Shown here: positions 332 through 21,448 of the stretch, piece by piece
Numbering within the stretch: position 1 is the first letter of the stretch
Layout: each line of letters begins with the position of its first letter
NCBI RefSeq assembly: GCF_036711975.1
Contig: NC_091973.1
Coordinates: 20,956,001-21,020,000, forward strand
Direction: 5' to 3'
DNA length: 64,000 bases
Origin: Onthophagus taurus
Lineage: Eukaryota; Arthropoda; Insecta; Coleoptera; Scarabaeidae
Notes under the pieces: generated by a model
Database searches by the model: none
What the model was told of the DNA's origin: nothing
The model's input: the letters and a program-made list of their open reading frames with translations, nothing else
Program-made: the position numbers and the translations under genes

Positions 332-2031
332 ATGAGCAAAAAAGATCCGGGCGAACATGTGTTTAAACCGTCGACGGTTTTAGCCAGATCACCGGTCGGG
401 TCTAGGGGTCCGGATGGGAGAAGGAGAGAGACCTCTGAGGGTAGTAGCCACAGGGGGGAGGAAGCTGAGAGGACTACAGTGGGGGAGAGAGTGAGAGAAA
501 TGGAGGAATCTGGAGCAGAGCGGAAGAAGGAGGCCGGAAAGAAGAAAGAAGGTGAGACTCGCAAGAAGAAGGAACCAGAGAGGAAGAAAGAAACTGGGAA
601 GAAGGATGAAGAAACGATGAAGGAAGAAGAAGTACGAAGAAGGAAGGCTGAAGAAACGAAGCAGAAGGTGGCGAAACTAGTAGCCGAAAGGGGGGTGGCG
701 CTGGCTGCGGAGACGGCTAGGGACGTGGACAACTGGGTCCTTGACTCGGGTTCTGTTGTACCTTCTGATGGCAGTGAGTCTATGCAAATGGGAGATGAGC
801 AGAGGAAGAGACAAAGAGACTCTGACAGTGAAGGCGAGAGGGATAGGGAGTCCTCTAAGAAAGGCCGCAGCGTGGGTGCGGCGTATGTATTTGGGGGTGG
901 CCTGCGTGGGTCGCCTGGGGCAAAAGGTGATGACTGCTACGAAAAGACTGAGATAGTCAAAAGAGAAAGAAATGCCATACAGCAGTACCTTTTATTACCA
1001 TCGGCCAAAGTTAGCAAAGAGGCCACGGCAGTTATCCTCCAGAGGTGGAACGTCATGGAGGACACGCTGCGAGAACTAATTGTGGAAAACCTGAAATTAA
1101 AAGAAGAAAACAAATACTTGCGTTTACAAAAAAACTCACCTGAAGGGGTCGGAGTGACGGGGTCTACTGCTTCTGCGGTGTCCTACGCTGGGGCTGCTGC
1201 CAGGGGTCTCGCTGCGGGTCCCTCTTCGTCCGGGGTGAAGCCGCGCCAGGGTGTCGTTCCAATGGAATCTGAAACAGAAAGAAAAATACTGATTAAACCT
1301 GTGGAGGGCTCTAAAGTCGCCAGAGTACCGTCGTTGAGGAGGAGATTTCCAAGGTACTGAGGAACGAACTTAAGAATGTGAAGGTCAGGGCTATGAGGAC
1401 GACGAGGAGTACTGGTATACTGTTGGAGGCGGCTGACAAGCGGGAGGTAAGTAAAATCTTAGCATGTAAGAAAATCGGGGAGCTCGGTTTCAGGGCAGAA
1501 AAGCCAAGGACGATGATGCCTACGGTCCAGGTTTACGACGTCCCCTTGGAGCTGAAGGATGACGACATCAGGCAAGATATCTTCAACAGAAACCTGGAGG
1601 AGAGGGGTGTCCGATGGGAGGAATTCAACAGGGATACCAAGGTGCTGACCCGACTGGGGAGGAAGGAGACCAGCAGCGCCGTTGTGTTGGAGGTGGCGCC
1701 TACCGTTTGGAGGGAGCTGCTCAATCTCCAGCGGGTGTACGTGGACCGTAGAGTCTGCAGGGTTGTGGATTACGTCCCGGTAACGCGATGTTTTAAGTGC
1801 CTGGAGTTTGGGCACATCGCGCGTGTGTGCACCGGTGAAGAAACTTGCAGACATTGCGCCGGTAAAGGACATAATGAAAAAGATTGCCCTAATAGGGAGC
1901 GACCGCCGTGTTGTAAACTGTGTTCCGGTCGGGGTAGGTCGAGCGACCACCCCACGACGTCGGGTAAGTGTCCTGAATTTGTCCGGCAGATTCAACTAAG
2001 GCGCGATAAAACAGACTATCTTCACAGTTAG
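332..2031 (+). pseudogene. R1-clade ORF1 (gag-like), frameshifted
   Basis: ATG 332 opens a highly charged N-terminal half: a Lys/Glu-rich coiled-coil stretch (about residues 50-125) and a second coiled coil near residue 235. That frame ends at 1360. The rest continues in the next frame to 2031 and holds an RRM-like middle region and three zinc knuckles, beginning CFKCLEFGHIARVC and CRHCAGKGHNEKDC. Comparison with copy 2 (37.7-38.8 kb), which reads straight through, puts a one-base lesion near 1320, just after KILIKPVEGSKV. The product would bind LINE RNA and form the RNP. The stop at 2029-2031 overlaps the expected ORF2 start, as usual in this clade. Confidence 0.85.
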
Positions 2032-5000
2032 GTGCATCCAACTGAATTGTCAAAGGTCAAAGGCGGTGATGGGGGAGGTGTTGAAGTGCGCGACGGAGAG
2101 AGGTGTGGATATCCTGTTATTACAGGAACCATACTTCTCGCGGGACGTGGAAAACTCATTGTCGCGGGTGGGTCGAATAGTAAAAAGCGCGGGTGTGACC
2201 TCCGGCGCGGCCATAGTGGTCCTAAATGAGAGCTTCATTATCACGGTTCTCGGGACTTTTATGAGCTCGAACGTCGTAACGGTGGCGTGTGAATTCGACA
2301 ACACGAGGTTAATTTTCGCATCTGTTTACTGTCAATATAGTGAAGGTATCGATCGGTATATCGAGATACTGGAAAAGCTCGAGAGTAGATTCGGTAACGG
2401 TGCGGTGGTGATTGCGATGGACGCGAACGCGCGGTCCCCGCTCTGGTTCGATAGAATCTTGGACGAAAAGGGTGAAAAATTACAAGAATACCTGATCTCG
2501 AGTCGTCTCCACCTGGCAAATGAGGATGGACCGCTGACTACGTTTCATACAGAAAATGGGGAATCCAACATTGATGTGACGATTGTCGGGTCGGGCTTGC
2601 TCGGGTCGGTGGTGGACTGGAGGGTGGCTGTTGAGACGACGTCCGATCACAGGGCCATCGTCTTCGGGCTAAAAGTTGGTAAACCTGAAAAAGAGAAAAA
2701 AGTAATTAAAAAAAGTGTCAAAAAAGTAAACTGGAGTGCGGTTGAAGATCTTATTGGTAGTGAGTTCGCGAGGCGGGAAATGGACCCATTGTTGGAAGGG
2801 AGTGACGTCGAGGCTGTGGTGCGTGAAGTTACTAGTCGGTTGTCGCGAATAGTGGAGGTTACTATCGCGAAGCGGGTCGTGAAACCAAACCGATGTAAAT
2901 GGTGGAACGTGGAGTTGGGAAGGGAAAGGGCGATTGTGCGTCGTATCCGCCGGGAGCTCCAGAGAGAGCTAAGAATGGGAAGTGAGATGGTGCCCAGACT
3001 GAGGGAAACTTTGAAAGATCGAATTCGTAAATATAAGCGATTGATAGAGGCAGCCAAAAAGGAGTCATGGGAGAAGTTCGTGGTTGATCATAGTGACGAC
3101 CCGTGGGGCTTGCTCTACAAATTAGCCATGGACAAACTGCCCGTTCGTGACTTGATTCACTCTGTGGTTCTGGGTGGCCGTGAGACGGTGGGGTGGGCAG
3201 ACACTGCGCGTACGGTCCTGGAGTCGCTAGTGGTATGCAAAGAGGAGGAGAGGGGGGTGATAGAAGATGAGAACTACGCTGCCGAGTCTCCTGAAGTCTG
3301 GATAAGTATCCACGACCTTAATGCCGCGGTGAAGGGGATGAAGACGGGGAAGTCTCCTGGTAGCGACGGCATATATCCGGAATATGTCAAAAAGTTGTGG
3401 GAACTGCGGCCGGGCGTACTTAGGGACTTATTCAACCTATGCCTCGAACAGAGAAAGTTCCCTGGTCTTTGGAAAACCGCTGAAGCGGTCATGTTAATAA
3501 AGAAAAAAGGGATAGTGGATAACGTAAAGGCATATAGGTTGATCTCCCTGCTGCCTGTCTTGGGCAAATTATTTGAAAGGCTACTATGGGTGAAGATTGA
3601 TGAGAGGTATCGAGTGAATGTAGGCCACAGCTCGAGGCAATACGGGTTCCGTGCGGGGAGAGGCACCGGCGACGCCTTGTTCAGAGTGCGGGAAGCGGTG
3701 CTGACCAGTGACACCAAATATGTCCTGGGCGTCTTTGTGGACATAGCGGCGGCCTTCGACACGGTATGGTGGCCGAAAGTGTTGCACAGGCTTAGGTTGG
3801 CCGGGGTTTCGCGTAATGTGTACGAAGTGGTGCGCGACTACTTTCGAGGTCGCGAAGTAGTTATGACGTCGGGTGTGGGTGAAGTGAGGAGCGGCATGAC
3901 TAGGGGATGCCCGCAGGGCTCGGTCCTTGGACCGAGATTCTGGGGCATACTCCTGGATGCCCTGCTGGAGGAGCGGATCCAGGGAGTGGAGATCTTGGCC
4001 TACGCCGACGACCTGTTGCTCCTGGTGATGGGTGACAGTCGGGCCGAGTTGGAGGATTGCGGGAACGCAGCATTGGTTCGGGTCAACGAATGGGTCAGGG
4101 ATAACCGACTACAAATCGCCGGGACAAAGACCCAGATGATGATGCTGAAAGGAAGCCTGAAAAGAAAGCCAATCCTTAAAGTTGGGGGTGAGCCTGTTAA
4201 ATATAAATCCTCTGTCCGTTATTTAGGTGTCGTCCTTGACGAGAAATGGTCTTACCTTCCGCATTTAGTGGAGGTCAAGGCGAAAGTGGTTATGATGGTA
4301 TCGAAACTGAAGGGCGTCATGAGAGCAGAATGGGGGATGGGAAGAAGATCGCTCCGGACCATCTACTCCGGGCTATTCCTGGGTGTGGCATTATACGGTG
4401 TGGAACTGTGGGGTGAGAGGTTGGAGAACTCCCACCTACGGAGAAAACTCGCCTCCATCCAGAGATGTATGCTGGTTGCGATGATGCCGGTGTGCAGGAC
4501 GTCTTCCACGGAGTCGCTGCAGGTGTTGGGTGGCTGTCCTCCCCTGCACCTTGTGGCTGCTGGGAGATATGTGGGTTTCCTAAAAAAGAAAGGCGTAAAT
4601 AAGGTAATCTTAGAAATAGGCTGTGATACCGAGGTAACCAAGAAATCTTTAATAAAAAAGGGTATAAAAAATAAAGTAATGGCCGTATGGCAAAGTGGAT
4701 GGGACAACAGTGAAAGGGGTAGGGTCACTTACCGTTTTGTTCCCAGGGTTAAAGACAGGTGGCCGGCGTGGATGCGTATTGGTTTGCATCTTGGCTTCGC
4801 TCTTACTGGGCATGGTCCGATAAGAGAAAACCTCCATAGATTGGGTTTAGAAGAATCGGACCGGTGTTCCTGTGGAGAGGTGGAGTCGGTCGTGCATATG
4901 CTGGGCTCCTGTCCTTTGTACGGAGAGATAAGGTTCCGGTACTTAACCACACAAGGCTTGCGTACATGGGATGAGATACAACTCAAAAAGGTAATGTTGA

Positions 5001-5071
5001 CTGAACAAAGTTATTCGAACTTCAAAACATTTGTGGACGCCTTGTTCTGTGTGAGAAGAAATTTACCGTGA
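2018..5071 (+). CDS. R1-clade ORF2: endonuclease-reverse transcriptase
   Basis: A continuous frame of about 1017 codons encodes the protein that nicks target DNA and copies the LINE RNA in place. The N-terminal endonuclease shows QLNCQ, LLLQEPY, DANARSPLW, SNIDVTIV and SDHRA. The RT has [39 protein letters not shown] and AYADDLLLL. The C-terminus has CSCGEVESVVHMLGSC. I place the start at 2018 by analogy with copy 2, whose ATG overlaps the ORF1 stop; here that codon is ATC. The next in-frame ATG (2069) would drop about 17 residues, including QLNCQ. The catalytic motifs look intact. Length is close to copy 2 (1028 residues). Confidence 0.88.
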   Translation: MFTVRCIQLNCQRSKAVMGEVLKCATERGVDILLLQEPYFSRDVENSLSRVGRIVKSAGVTSGAAIVVLNESFIITVLGTFMSSNVVTVACEFDNTRLIFASVYCQYSEGIDRYIEILEKLESRFGNGAVVIAMDANARSPLWFDRILDEKGEKLQEYLISSRLHLANEDGPLTTFHTENGESNIDVTIVGSGLLGSVVDWRVAVETTSDHRAIVFGLKVGKPEKEKKVIKKSVKKVNWSAVEDLIGSEFARREMDPLLEGSDVEAVVREVTSRLSRIVEVTIAKRVVKPNRCKWWNVELGRERAIVRRIRRELQRELRMGSEMVPRLRETLKDRIRKYKRLIEAAKKESWEKFVVDHSDDPWGLLYKLAMDKLPVRDLIHSVVLGGRETVGWADTARTVLESLVVCKEEERGVIEDENYAAESPEVWISIHDLNAAVKGMKTGKSPGSDGIYPEYVKKLWELRPGVLRDLFNLCLEQRKFPGLWKTAEAVMLIKKKGIVDNVKAYRLISLLPVLGKLFERLLWVKIDERYRVNVGHSSRQYGFRAGRGTGDALFRVREAVLTSDTKYVLGVFVDIAAAFDTVWWPKVLHRLRLAGVSRNVYEVVRDYFRGREVVMTSGVGEVRSGMTRGCPQGSVLGPRFWGILLDALLEERIQGVEILAYADDLLLLVMGDSRAELEDCGNAALVRVNEWVRDNRLQIAGTKTQMMMLKGSLKRKPILKVGGEPVKYKSSVRYLGVVLDEKWSYLPHLVEVKAKVVMMVSKLKGVMRAEWGMGRRSLRTIYSGLFLGVALYGVELWGERLENSHLRRKLASIQRCMLVAMMPVCRTSSTESLQVLGGCPPLHLVAAGRYVGFLKKKGVNKVILEIGCDTEVTKKSLIKKGIKNKVMAVWQSGWDNSERGRVTYRFVPRVKDRWPAWMRIGLHLGFALTGHGPIRENLHRLGLEESDRCSCGEVESVVHMLGSCPLYGEIRFRYLTTQGLRTWDEIQLKKVMLTEQSYSNFKTFVDALFCVRRNLP

Positions 5072-6066
5072 TTATGTTTGGTTGTGTAAGTAATAGAGGT
5101 TTTATTTATTTCTGTGTTATTCGTTTGGAGATATCTTATTTATTTACTTTTTAAATTATTGCGATATTTATATTTTTATAGGTGTGATATATGACTGTGA
5201 TATTTTTACCTTATTGTTCATCCGACGTGCGTTGGAACTGTTGTCTTCGGAAACTCCAGGATTGTGGCGGGCTGGATCCTGCTGGGGACCTAAAACAAAG
5301 AGAAAGTAGATGAGGGGGCTGCATATGTCTTACCTTCGGCCAGTCGTCCGAGTGTGCTGTGTAGCTACAGCTGATGACTCAAACTACATCTAACGATGGG
5401 TCAGGTCCCAGATAAATCTGTTGATGACAGGGTATTGGTTTTAATTTCTATGTTGGGTGAAGATGATGTGAGTTGAGAGAGAGTGTGAATGTGGAGGATG
5501 GCTATCCTGGTGTGCCGGGGGTCGGTCACCGCGGAGGAAGGTCTGGGTGCGGTTCCGCCTTGGCAACGGTTACTCGTGTCCGTCTCCTGTGGGGCTGCCG
5601 AACAGAAGCGTATGCTTGCCCCTACTGTCGTCAAGGCTTCCGGTAGCTATAAACGCTGAGTGAGGCTGAGATGGCAGAGGGAGGGCCTTTGGGCTCCGTG
5701 CGGCTGCGTGGAGGGTTGGTGTGCGCCGTCGGGGGAGGGTTCGAGGGGCGTGCCGGGGGTCTGGTCGTGGCCTGGACTGGATGCCGCGGGAGTGGTCGCT
5801 GGTGCGGTGGAGGGTCGTCCTGGGTGAGTATGGCGGGAAGGTGTGAATTTAATGTTGTCCTGCGTTGGTCCTAGTTAGTGAAATTCAGGTGAGTCGGCAG
5901 TGGTTTCCTGGTGCGTGGGGCCCCGCCTCCACGTGGCAGGGATGGTAACTTCTCCCCTTGGGGAGAAGGCAAAGTGGGCGAGAATATATGTGAGGAGAGA
6001 ATGAAGCGGCTATGGGCTATGCCCTGGTACCGCATGTTGTGTCGAGTCTGTGTTGTGTGTGTGTGA
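5072..6066 (+). other. 3' untranslated part of R1-clade copy 1
   Basis: No credible protein. It is AT-rich to about 5220, then G-rich, ending in TG-rich sequence abutting Jockey homology. The TG-rich end recalls the ACAY-repeat targets reported for Waldo-type R1 elements. That is a resemblance only, because the left target flank is outside the window. Confidence 0.5.
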
Positions 6067-14852: not shown

Positions 14853-16148
14853 AAAGTTTACCATTATATTAATCCGTAGTTACATTCAGGCCCGGTTCTA
14901 GGGATGAAGTCATTATCGTGCCATTTAATTTCAGCCGCCCCCGACAGAGCCACCTTTTTAAAGATCTTGTATTTATTATTAATTGTAACGCATTTTTAAT
15001 TTTTTTTTTAACAATATAGAATTGATAAAGGAGTGAATAAAAATTGATTTGATGTTTAACAAACGTTTAGTTTATCGCTTAAAACTCAAATAGTTAAAAA
15101 AATTTTCAAAAACTAAAAACTGATATTGCACTAAAATGTGTGCTTTTTTATTTGCAAGTTCGTCAATAACGGTATCTAAATTAATTTCTTCTGACAATTC
15201 TTTTTCTATTGCTACTAAACTTAAGTTACTAAGTCTCTCTTGGCACATAGATGATCTTAAATATGATTTAATTAATTTTAACTTAGAAAAACTCCTTTCA
15301 CCTGTTGCAACTGTGACTAGTAGTGTTAAATATATTCTCAAGGCAACAGAAAAATTGGAAAAGGATGAAATTAAACCACTGGTTTGAATGAATTGTAAAT
15401 TCTTTAAAGGGTCGGTAACATCCTCATTAAGTATTTTGTACATTATCAATTCGTTGTACAAATCTTCACCGTCAACATCCTTAGAGATATCATCGTTATT
15501 TCGAACTTGCAAAGCTATATCAAAGTCTGCACAAGATTTTCTTAGATCATCTTCAGACATATTTCTGAATTCAATTAAAAATTTGAACAATGCGTTGCAC
15601 TCATTTAACGAAGTAAATCTTTCTTGAATAGAATTTAGAGTTGTGTCCCAAAGTGTAAAATAAAATTCCACTTTAAACAATAATTTTGGATCTTGAATCC
15701 GTTCATTATGGCATTCATAATCGAAAATACGAACTTTTTTCTTCTGCCTCTTCAAAGGAAATTCTATCTCTATATCTAGATCGGTTGCTAATGTTGTAGC
15801 ATCGTTAATATACTTATTGAAAGCTGCATCACACCTAGATGAATTTAAGAAGTCAATAATTTTGTTGAGTGATTTCACAGATTCATTAATTGTTGTTGTG
15901 GACGATTGTAGTAGCTTACTGGCAATATTAATATTTGAAAGAATATCATCCCATATTAAAATTGAGCAAATAAATTTAAAAGTACACTGAAAAAAATGGT
16001 ATTACATTTACAGTCATCTTATTGCACCATTTTACAATGAAATCATTGTAATAAAGTCAATTAGTCATATTATTGGAAAAAACATTTTCAAAAACGTATT
16101 CGCAACAAAATACGGAGCATTTACAATTTCTTTCGCTTCCACAATAAC

Positions 16149-18351
16149 TTGCGAAATAAAAATCATAACAATGAAAATGTAAATAACTCAAATAATCTCA
16201 TTCCTCAAACTCTTACAAATAATTTATTGGAGAACAATTTTCCCGAATATGCGGATGACGTCGGCGCACATACTAATGAACAACATTACGAACTTGCTAT
16301 GAAGTTACAGGGTTTATTATTTTTAACATTACAGTCAAAATATAACATTTCAAATAAATCATTGCAAACTATTGTTGAAAGTCTTTCTGATTTGAATAAA
16401 CTTAATTCTGAGTATATTATCCAAAAACTTCTTGATAGTGGTTATGTGTTTGATAAAAATATTATTCACAACGACTTATTTCAACAAGTTATTAATTCGA
16501 CGAATGGTAAATTACGAAACCAATATAACAGAGATATTTAGTATAAACAAAATTTTAATAACGTAGCACCTGTATGTTATAAATTGAGCAATAATTCAAC
16601 GTTTTACTATGTGCCTATAATTAACACAATACAATGTCTTTTAAAATATAATAATTTCAAAAATTTAATGTTTAGCAACAAAGAATCTACATCTAATGTA
16701 TTAGCTGATATTACAGATGCTAGCATCGTGACAAAAAACACTTTTTTTTACTCTGATAATGGTTATACGATAAAAATAATTTTGTTCCAAGATGCCTTTG
16801 AAGTGTGTAATCCTTTAGGATCATCAAGGAAAAAACATAAAATCATTGGAATGTATATGACCTTTGCCAATACGCCTGCATGGTTTCGTTCTCAGATTGA
16901 CAATATACATTTGGTGGCCTTAGTTTATGAAAAAGATGTTAAACAAGTTGGATTTGATGAAGTGTTGAATGTTATTGTAAATGACTTAAACACATTAGAA
17001 TTAATCGGCGTTGATGTTGAACTAAACGAGAAAAATATATCTGTAAAGGGTAGCATTTTAACAATTGTTGGTGATAACTTAGGAAATCATCATATCGGCG
17101 GTTTAAATGAAAATTTTAGTTTATCATCATATTTCTGTAGATTTTGTCACATTAACAATATAAAAAACAGCAGTGACATAAACAAGCACTCGTGAGTCAT
17201 ATGAATTTGATGTTGACATGGCCTCTTTAACACAATCATCCCACAGAGGAATTAAATCAAATTCAATACTCAATTCTTTAAGATTTTACCATGTAATGAA
17301 TCCAGGCTTAGCACCATGTATAGCACATGATGTTTTTGAGGGAATTTTGAAGGTAGATTTAGCACATGCTCTTGACATGTTAGAAGCTCAAAATTTATTA
17401 TCCTTCGAAGATTTAAATAAACGACTTCAGACTTTGTCATTTGAAGGTGAATCAAAAATCCACTTCCCTTTAATTAAGAAAAAAAACAATCTGTCGGGAT
17501 CTGCATATCAAAACATGATGTTTATAATTGTAATACCTTTTGTATTATCAATAAACGAACCAAATTACGCGTGGGAATTAATTTTGTTATTAAGAAAGAT
17601 TGTACTTTTACTTCTAGCATTTAAATTATCGACAAACCAAGTGGCTTATCTAAAATCTTTAATTGATGATTATATAGATTTAAAGTGCAAAATTTTACCA
17701 CAAATTCCATTTAAACCTAAACAACATTTCATAACCCATTATCCAGAACTATTTCTTCATTTTGGTCCACTTCGGCACTTGTGGACTTTGCGTTTCGAGC
17801 ATAAACATCAATACTTTAAAAATGTAGTAAGACATTCTAATTGTTTCAAAAACCTCTTAAAAACTTTATCATATCGACACCAGCTTTTACAGAGCTTAAA
17901 TATTGCACAAAACAAGCTGTATAATTCAGAATTTATTACTGAAAGTATTAAAATGTGCACAGAAAAATATTCCTCTGTACACTCATACCTTATGTCAATT
18001 AATGTTATTGATAGTACTGAGTATTTCATAACAGATCAGGTATTATACAGAGGAATTATATATGCGAAAAATTTTGTAATTTGTTACGGGCAAAATGATG
18101 TTGGCGATTATTTATTGTGTAAAATTAATAATATACTATTAAATTTTAAATTGAGCACATGTACTTTCATTGGAACTTCAGTTGTTGTATCGTCTGATCC
18201 CATTAGTGGATTATATTTCGCTAATAATAATGTTTCTGATAAATTAGTATACATAAATGTAATGTCTTTGATCTGCATAGAGCCTCTTTTGGTGCAAAAA
18301 GTTGGTAATTACCATCAGTACTCTTTTAGGTCTGCACCACTTGAACTATAA
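16149..18351 (+). pseudogene. CMC-like transposase gene
   Basis: An N-terminal helical region is followed by a nuclease-like core. QDAFEVCNPLGSSRKKHKI may carry the first acid, GDNLGNHHIGG...CRFCH the second with a zinc-binding pair, and LWTLRFEHKHQYFK the Glu. GLAPCIAHDVFEGI is a diagnostic block of an unnamed transposase-like family scattered through animal genomes. A TAG at 16,539-16,541 and a frameshift near 17,190 break it; flanking protein is otherwise continuous. No N-terminal zinc finger is seen. I infer a TNP2/CACTA-type DDE transposase; the catalytic assignments are by position and not proven. Confidence 0.7.
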
Positions 18352-18388
18352 CTATCACACACATTACATTGTATTATACCGCTTAAAA

Positions 18389-19385
18389 ATGACGCTGTTT
18401 AAAGTATGGGATTCGACACGTAATAAACGGTTTATGGTAATGGTTCCTGATGGAGAGGATCTGTATGAACAAATAGTACTTAGAGGTAAACATTATTTCA
18501 ATAATTTTATATTGCGTATATTTTGTTACTTCCTATAGTATAAAAATTTATTATTTCTTAGCTTCTACCAAATTACAAATAAATGGGGTATCGTTAGTGC
18601 TAGAAGAAGATGGTACAGTGATTGATGATACTAACGTACTCCGCGAGTTAAGGTCTGAACAAACACTTTTGCTCCTAACTGCCAACGAGAAATGGACGGA
18701 GCATTTAAATTTGACAACGACAGAATCAAGAACGTCAGGATTTAGTACGCCGACATCTGCTACATCTTCAATGCTATTATTTAATATTGAAAGTAGTGAT
18801 AATATTGCAAATCTGAATGTTGAAAATGATAACACTGAAATTAATAATATTGAAATTAATAGTATTGAAATTAATGATATTGAAAATGAAATGAATGTAA
18901 TGAATACTGAAACATTATCTAATAGAAATGAAGAACTCGACTGGACTAGATTCCAAATACCTTGTCACAAGTTCCCAGCTAACTACTTACATTTATATGA
19001 ACAGGGGACAAAACACCAACATATTATTACAGATATGGTCCACATAATTGTAAATGTATTAAGAACCATAGATACCCAACCACCGATGCGTACACTCAAA
19101 AATATAGCTAGAGAAATATCGTAAAAGTATCCTAAAACTTTCTGCGATGTAGACGATGACGGTGCAGTATTAGGGAATGGGTTCGCAAGTTTATTTTTCA
19201 AATTACATGAACGGGTACATTATTTAAGGAGGCCACACAAACGGTCAAATAATAGTGTAGAACCAACAACTCCAAAAAAATTTTTAAAAAAGAAAACTTC
19301 TGCACAGGCAGGATGCTCACAATGGGCATCTGTTGTAGTTAACCACATTGAAAACATCAATTATATTGATAATTTTACACTGTAA
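18389..19385 (+). pseudogene. Transposon-borne CIDE-N domain protein
   Basis: ATG 18,389 begins MTLFKVWDSTRNKRFMVM. A 76-bp intron (GTAAAC donor at 18,486, TTAG acceptor ending 18,561) joins in frame to STKLQINGVSLVLEEDGT, DDTNVLRELRS and LLLLTANEKW. This matches the CIDE-N fold signature of CAD/ICAD and CIDE proteins: an acidic LEEDGT strand, a D-D turn and a closing hydrophobic strand. An Asn/Glu-rich linker of INNIEINSIE-type repeats follows, then a second conserved module (FQIPCHKFP; LKNIAREIS). After an in-frame TAA at 19,122, KYPKTFCDVDDDGAVLGNG and LHERVHYLRRP continue in frame. CIDE-N normally mediates protein-protein association; its role here is unknown. Confidence 0.7.
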
Positions 19386-21448
19386 ATTTACAATTGCAAT
19401 GTAAATTTATGTTAGTACGTGTAAATTCACTTTTACTATAATAACATTACAACGAAACGATGGGTCAAAAATAACCAATCATCTCATCGTAATTTTCCCA
19501 CATTTTTTTTTCAGTGTAGATATATTGTTTACTAAAGCATTTGCTGCAACTTTCGTTTGGATCCGTTATCATATCCTTGGCCATGTATGTTTTGCACATC
19601 TAAATCATAAGTACTTAATAATTCATTGGTAAAGAAATTAAACAATCCTTCTCCAGTTGCATCCAATACTGGATAGAACCCAAGAAATAGTTCTTTAATT
19701 TCAATAGGAGATGTACTCATATCCACTATTCTGGCTACAAAAGAAATTTGTTCAACATGCGTTACATCTGACGTACAATCTAAAATAACAGAAAAATATT
19801 TCGATTTTTTTATTAACTCTTGAATTTTTGTTTTTATCGAATTAGCCAGTTTCGTAATAATTTCATTTTGGAAAGAGTGTCCTAGGTAATGAGGCATGTA
19901 ACTGTAGTTCTTACTTTTTTGAATATTATTGATATGATTTGAAATAATTGGATCAAATTTCGCCAGCATTTCTATACCTTTTAGAAAATTTCCGTTATTT
20001 CGTTCATATAATACATCAGAATCACATCTAAAAGCTAAACATTGTCCTGCTAAATACTGTACAATTGCAACAATTCTGGTGACAATATCACGCCATCTTC
20101 TTTTCTCCGACTCAAAATATCGTTATTGTTCACAGTCTATAGTACAATTCTTACTAAGTCTTTTTTTCAATTCATTCCACTTTTGATAATTGAACATATG
20201 ATCAATACTTGATTCATGTCGGGATAATTGTGTAGCCAAATGTCGCCAATCAGAAAATTCGTCTTTTCCTCCTAATTTCATTGATTTAATGGAAAATAAT
20301 TTGCAACAATAACAAAATGTGCTGTTTGCCTTGAGTGAGTACACCAACCGTTTTTCTCCGTTTTTTTCTTTCAATCTTTTCACCATTTGGTAATATTCGA
20401 AAGTATTGTGACGGTGAGAACGTCACAATACTTTCTTCATCGCTGTCTGTGTTTGTAGGAAATTTTATGTTTTGTTGAATCGATGGAGGTCCTTTTTCAA
20501 CGAGAATTTCCAATAATCGGTTATTGATTATTGCTGGCCAAGTAGAGGGGTCGTGTAGATTTATAGATGAGGTCGAAGATACATTATCAATTTCTATTTC
20601 AGTATTTTTTTTCATACGCGGAACTTGCGGGACTAGTGGTAATACTGGTAATGTCATCAGTTGGGATAGTAATGTTACTAATATTATCAGATGTTGCTTC
20701 GTCGATAGAAAAATTCCTCGCTGAAGTCGAAACTGGATTATTATCTTCATCTAACATAACAAACTTAAGCATAGAATTTCGTAATTTTTTTTCTTGCTTA
20801 TCTTTTTCCGCTTTACGCTTTCTATAAAAAGCACCAGATTCACGCTTTGTCTTCCTTTCTGACATCTTCAATCTTTATGCTTATGTTAAGAAATAATATC
20901 CACCTTAGTTAACTTAGTGTCTAAGTAAATAGGAATTTTATTTATCTTCGAATCGGCAGGTTATTTCACAATAAACTAAGTTAATAAACCAAATATTAAT
21001 ACATTGAACATTTGGGAAACAATGGTGGGTTTGGAATGCCAACTTAATCACAGCCGTAACCGATTTAGAGGTTAGCGCTGACCGGTTAGGAAACATTTTT
21101 AACGATTTTAAATTTTACTTAAAAGAGGTAAGTGTTGTCAACAAAAAAATCAGAACCAATTTTTTTATTTATGGTTGGTAGCACGATGTAGTTTTACTTT
21201 CGGCGACTAGATGCCGCTGAAGGCATTCGAAGTTTGAGTAATTTCCGTCGAGTCGTATGATGGCGCAAACTGAATATTTCAATATGGTTTCTTTTTAATA
21301 TTTCGTCTGTGCATATGACGGCCGGCCGCCTTCGTGCATGCACGCTTCGCACGCTCGGTAGAACCGGGCCTGGTTAAATTTCATATGTATATACTAATAC
21401 TCTTGTAATAAAATGATTAGTTAAAATTATGAAAATATTCTTCTTACT

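Follow-up and report, generated by a model that had tools for sequence, protein, structure and literature searches.

The window, a 64,000-nucleotide stretch on contig C8 of the 290.8-Mb Onthophagus taurus assembly (C-numbers denote contigs there), carries at 15985–19516 a two-gene CACTA/EnSpm (CMC) DNA transposon, in a copy that has decayed and lost internal parts. The element is ordinary as a dead CACTA copy and unusual for its second gene, which encodes a CIDE-N protein. By analogy with known systems, it is proposed, at about even odds (a probability of roughly 0.5), that this accessory protein uses CIDE-N to assemble with itself and works together with the transposase at the element ends. 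The literature searches, with Repbase outside their scope, yielded no account of transposons carrying a CIDE-N gene or of such a pair of genes.

The predicted gene 2 product is a genuine CIDE-N protein, and its gene is laid out in the window as follows:
18389..18485, plus strand: gene 2 exon 1, first half of CIDE-N (Pfam and frame analysis)
18486..18561, plus strand: gene 2 intron, 76 base pairs (bp), with a 63-bp counterpart in paralogue L007 and the same position in L063
18562..19121, plus strand: gene 2 exon 2 up to TAA, with the rest of CIDE-N, a low-complexity linker and the start of a helical module
19122..19385, plus strand: gene 2 stop and open remainder of the KYP...RPHKR module, with the C-terminal domain missing

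Residues 3–78 of the spliced product match CIDE-N (PF02017) in Pfam with an E-value of 5.8e-14 and a score of 52.3 bits (cut-off 23.5), and its fold is that of the family. An original prediction, made from the letters of the window, had joined the two CIDE-N halves over the 76-bp intron and had set the lack of any such match, beforehand, as grounds for giving the idea up. The best solved relative of the domain is DREP2 (E 6.5e-9). The splice junction recurs identically in the NCBI model P0001 (LOC111416030, O. taurus, 219 residues), with R63K as the single difference. Two diverged paralogues, L007 and L063, have a corresponding intron. That of L007 differs by insertions and deletions (63 bp vs 76 bp) and is open in frame; the window intron carries an in-frame stop, and L063 has stops between the CIDE-N halves.

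In intact relatives, gene 2 encodes CIDE-N, a flexible linker, a helical module containing the basic stretch RPHKR/KKK and a C-terminal domain. The second conserved module that had been noticed around AREIS-KYPKTF is kept in relatives, while the C-terminal domain is absent from the window copy, in which a TAA stop codon stands at 19122–19124. CIDE-N was the sole Pfam family above cut-off in gene 2, and a RAG2-like second protein was not found; in gene 2 and the relatives scanned, neither a DFF40 nuclease nor a DFF-C domain was matched. The gene 2 alignment gave no confirmed relative in the viral_contigs collection, and fish proteins with a gene 2-like layout (SAMD3-like) were not among the protein search matches. 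The repeated N/I/E linker is encoded by 15-bp direct repeats at 18799–18906 in exon 2.

Gene 1 is a CACTA/CMC-type cut-and-paste transposase. Its features in the window, with catalytic roles assigned from invariant columns and a RAG1-like fold, are:
16065..18351 (start approximate), plus strand: gene 1, broken CMC/CACTA transposase, from relatives and the fold of the intact relative P0005
16791..16793, plus strand: putative first catalytic Asp codon (P0005 D358)
17073..17075, plus strand: putative second catalytic Asp codon (P0005 D453)
17136..17147, plus strand: C(2)C motif (P0005 C474, C477), by alignment to P0005
17725..17739, plus strand: H(3)H motif (P0005 H679, H683), by alignment to P0005
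17797..17799, plus strand: putative catalytic Glu codon (P0005 E703)

All seven residues are invariant in the alignment of gene 1 relatives (A4) and present in the window, which agrees with the CMC-like nature originally proposed for gene 1. The C(2)C and H(3)H motifs lie between the second D and the last E, the arrangement given for CMC/CACTA transposases, with H(3-4)H, in the sections consulted of PMC12730594. The Pfam family Transposase_21 (tnp2) is approached from below its cut-off of 28.6 bits by the window piece (16.9 bits), P0005 (25.7) and P0017 (26.9). The predicted structure of P0005 points to a RAG1/Transib-like catalytic core in the intact relative. Fuller gene 1 relatives have N-terminal C2H2-like fingers, recognized from spacing by eye and Pfam matches under cut-off, and a tentative BAH-like end. 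The three proteins scanned against NCBIfam matched no family. The gene 1 alignment found no confirmed relative in the viral_contigs or genome_contigs collections.

The window copy is a broken deletion derivative, a state that the original prediction had not reported. Gene 1 is interrupted by TAG at 16539–16541 and by a frameshift near 17182–17195, and gene 2 by its stop; also missing are the end of gene 2 and the N-terminal fingers that relatives of gene 1 have. Elsewhere on the contig, at G000:C8:13.53-14.25 Mb, 20 matches to related transposase genes occur, many with long open frames. Their spacings are regular, with some matches 105.9 kb apart, and resemble those of a tandem array; the CIDE-N family search gave no match within it.

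The boundaries of the element and the gene into which it is inserted are the following:
15983..15984, no strand: left TA target-site duplication, a single TA at 8/8 compared empty hAT sites
15985..15996, plus strand: left terminal inverted repeat CACTGAAAAAAA, the left terminus being found also at L022, L025 and L026
19505..19516, minus strand: right terminal inverted repeat TTTTTTTCAGTG, from repeat analysis
19517..19518, no strand: right TA target-site duplication, a single TA at the same 8/8 sites
15072..20122, minus strand: hAT transposase gene split by the element into 15072–15984 and 19517–20122, from comparison of its flanks with paralogues

The element spans 3,532 bp and has the CACTG...CAGTG ends and TA duplication first predicted, with 12-bp inverted repeats within the duplication; once TA is counted, the inverted repeat is perfect over 14 bp (15983–15996 / 19505–19518). 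It is nested in a minus-strand hAT transposase gene, whose left flank has 20 listed matches (window included). The eight other long loci among them (L030–L037) were compared, and the joined flanks align with all eight, with one TA at the junction; seven alignments are gapless, that of L037 has one gap, and L035 covers 58–190 only. Because each of the eight empty sites holds a single TA, the boundaries are right and not a product of chance. The hAT copy of the window lacks 62 to 354 bp that are present in the eight paralogues, about 40 bp from the insertion.

The ends conform to the CACTR...YAGTG termini of CMC/CACTA elements, and identical ends occur at L022. The target duplication, TA in the window and AA at L022, falls within the 2 or 3 bp of this superfamily. 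The RAG1–RAG2 and TransibSU systems have CAC ends and a 5-bp target duplication, compared with 2 bp here.

Judged by their sequences, gene 1 and gene 2 are a recurrent pair in O. taurus, a flea beetle and an ant. Six O. taurus loci have gene 2 immediately downstream of gene 1, no more than about 0.4 kb away and in the same orientation: the window, L007, L059, L062, L063 and C6:32513646-32514764. Only gene 2 exon 1 is present at L059 (E 1.9e-6), the C6 locus has transposase fingers and then C-terminal pieces of gene 2, and the L062 and C6 pairs are joined by deletions inside the element. In Psylliodes chrysocephalus (flea beetle, P0025) and the ant Cyphomyrmex costatus (P0023), one predicted protein each joins a partial transposase to a following CIDE-N and the modules of gene 2; the CIDE-N of P0023 lacks the first third of the domain and stays under the Pfam cut-off (19.9 bits). 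In P0054, transposase-type fingers are joined to the end of gene 2. Adjacent pairs in other genomes, for which the original prediction had proposed a search, are represented by P0025 and P0023, in addition to the six O. taurus loci.

Searching the O. taurus genome with P0048, an intact relative from Zophobas morio, gave 25 matches, 18 of which make up 10 gene 2 family loci (C11:10301794 and C11:10308098 counted as one); the other seven belong to a separate element family (L064 type). Four of the ten loci have gene 1, two have family termini and no gene 1, and four lack a gene 1 match. L059 and L062 are additional to these ten and were found from gene 1 matches, four of which (L059–L062) were read downstream, two being paired and two not. 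Consistent separation of gene 2 from gene 1, the outcome named in advance as adverse to the pairing, was not observed, although six of the ten P0048 loci show no gene 1. Both family ends, an AA duplication and no gene 1 are found at L022 (G000:C8:8834500-8844499), a copy filled with other elements including, by eye, a mariner-like open frame. L023 has the right end of the family (98.6% identity over 148 bp) and no gene 1; CACTGAAA on its left was rejected as a terminus, being by eye a chance match within a retroelement. Littorina saxatilis P0004, with a strong CIDE-N, was not counted as a pair because the rest of the protein shows no significant relationship to the insect gene 2 profile (hhalign probability 1.3, E 0.038).

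Comparison of the window and L007 copies gives a ratio of nonsynonymous to synonymous substitution rates (dN/dS) of 0.20 over 191 codons of gene 2 (synonymous divergence dS 1.13), 0.205 over the 79 codons of CIDE-N and 0.345 over 103 codons at the end of gene 1; a third piece of 47 codons was saturated and excluded. Since both copies are decayed, these values are read as selection in the source elements. In a CIDE-N tree of 11 rows, seven transposon-type rows, Littorina P0004 among them, split from four host domains with 99/98 support; six of the eight inner branches are poorly supported and one host row is very long.

The proposed self-assembly, which the original prediction too had suggested for the transposition complex, takes its model from the CIDE-N domains of DREP2 and DREP3, which form head-to-tail filaments through opposite charged faces and become monomers with K13D in DREP2 or D167R in DREP3, according to the parts consulted of PMC6292858 and PMC8647176. 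Five of the six charged interface positions of DREP2 (K13, R22, D56, E61, E64) are mostly kept in the transposon domains, which have the opposite charged patches of the family; K23 is not kept, and the window has N at E64. Among uncharged positions, W15 is kept in 5/5 domains and T58 in 7/7, compared with 0/7 for Q59, Y65 and N72. Candidate sites of action lie inside both ends, in the subterminal repeats expected of CMC/CACTA elements:
16032..16051, plus strand: left subterminal palindrome built on TTACAATGA, from repeat analysis
19447..19492, minus strand: right subterminal inverted pair of TTACAATGA-like sites (19447–19455 and 19484–19492, one mismatch each)

With at most one mismatch, 20 TTACAATGA-like sites occur in nine ends (none of them in L027_R), and seven others in the 3,272-bp body. 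The simulated expectation has a mean of 1.4 and a maximum of 6 (500 sets), to be read with the motif having been picked after viewing homologous ends. The CIDE-N domains of gene 2 would join head to tail via their acidic and basic faces, and the protein could build up into oligomers or filaments, either on the transposase or at the subterminal palindromes. Such assemblies might help to bring both element ends together, or set transposase activity by concentration. The job of gene 2 would be that of TnpA in plant En/Spm or of RAG2 beside RAG1.

Other roles have to be weighed against this partnership with the transposase. The CIDE-N of gene 2 might instead act on the host, joining DFF40/DFF45 (DREP) oligomers and blunting or blocking apoptotic DNA cutting where the transposase makes breaks. 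The same idea has been proposed, in the parts consulted of PMC5245865, for the small CIDE-N proteins of insect granuloviruses, to which the structure matches are weak (E 0.05–0.08). Host CIDE-N genes are present in the same genome (L001–L003), and the key charged faces of gene 2 are compatible with hetero-binding. However, the transposon domains are set apart from the four host domains in the small tree described above and are 13–42% identical to host CIDE-N (the 13% row being a partial domain), and gene 2 has retained two more modules, which a simple decoy could do without. A host-directed decoy is considered unlikely, and less likely than a transposase partner. Much the same doubt attaches to gene 2 as a regulator of element expression or silencing, working on chromatin or transcription with CIDE-N serving only for dimers or small oligomers. 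The second genes of fungal CMC elements include TET/JBP enzymes with a proposed part in escape from silencing (PMC12730594, sections consulted), the subterminal palindromes are candidate binding sites and gene 1 relatives have the tentative BAH-like end; against this, none of the known DNA-binding or chromatin domains passed the cut-off in the Pfam scans of gene 2.

Readings that deny gene 2 a role, or its existence, fare far worse. A captured piece of host gene, functionless for the element, would fit the DREP2 match and the broken state of the window copy, but it is contradicted by the dN/dS of about 0.2, an intron position common to three copies, the same gene order in other insects and the conserved C-terminal modules, and is very improbable. 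Hardly credible is a misreading of intron or boundary, with halves that are not one protein or not one element. The open L007 intron would allow it, whereas the NCBI junction, the in-frame stop of the window intron, the 76- vs 63-bp length difference, the L063 stops and the empty sites all speak against it.

The second protein of plant CACTA elements is not known to contain CIDE-N. These elements, En/Spm included, share two genes, subterminal repeats and CACT ends with the window element and differ in their 3-bp target duplication; the function of their second protein is given as unknown in the part consulted of PMC8978399. The animal CACTA/EnSpm element SmTRC1 of Schistosoma resembles the window element in its tnp2-like transposase, spliced genes and 2-bp target duplications (7/14 copies); SmTRC1-type ends reportedly begin CCC rather than CACTG, and a CIDE-N second gene does not appear in the sections consulted of PMC1636069. 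RAG1–RAG2 and TransibSU have a similar two-gene layout and predicted transposase fold; their second protein is RAG2-like instead of CIDE-N, and the sea urchin RAG locus is head to head, in contrast to the tandem order on one strand here (PMC4411706, in part). With DREP2/3/4, DFF40, DFF45 and CIDE-A/B/C, gene 2 has in common the CIDE-N fold and opposite charged faces (PMC8647176 and PMC6292858, in part); it differs in its other C-terminal modules, in being transposon-encoded and in the lack of a nuclease or DFF-C match. Betabaculoviruses likewise carry CIDE-N on a mobile or viral genome of insects, as proteins of 91–111 residues in four of five named homologues and without other modules; no transposase partner is described in the portion consulted of PMC5245865.

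The known homes of CIDE-N are lipid-droplet proteins, the nucleases of apoptosis with their inhibitors, and a small number of insect viruses. Its presence in a second gene that is under selection and recurs beside a transposase of predicted RAG1 fold adds a new kind of accessory protein to DNA transposons and hints that, in mobile elements as well, DNA cutting may be controlled by the assembly of filaments. CIDE-N is over-represented in Hydra and grouped with DNA-binding motifs there (PMC7642931, in part); transposon gene 2 copies may explain such expansions. A broader and distinctly more tentative idea is that a lineage of animal CACTA elements with a RAG1-fold transposase took up a filament-forming CIDE-N partner once, long ago, and kept it in beetles and ants, possibly molluscs, with a modular partner class in which the L064 C-terminal domain lies behind a different N-terminal piece. 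On this idea, transposition in these elements would be switched by higher-order protein assembly, like apoptotic DNA cutting.

The L064 element (1690–5449 of that locus, G000:C2:10802689-10806448) is 3,760 bp long, with CACTGAGAAAAA...CAGTG ends and a TA duplication. Its family has 73 matches, six others covering all or nearly all of the length at 97–100%, and its short derivatives are numerous. The copy that was read codes for a C-terminal domain of the gene 2 type (34% identity to P0002 over 116 residues, E 6.6e-9) and has no visible transposase. A SAM-like reading by eye of its N-terminal piece was dropped, Pfam SAM_Ste50p (E 0.043) lying under cut-off and PDB sequences giving no support.

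No tRNA gene was found in the window (1–64000). Many of its long open frames are retroelement-like by eye (reverse transcriptase, RNase H and integrase-like).

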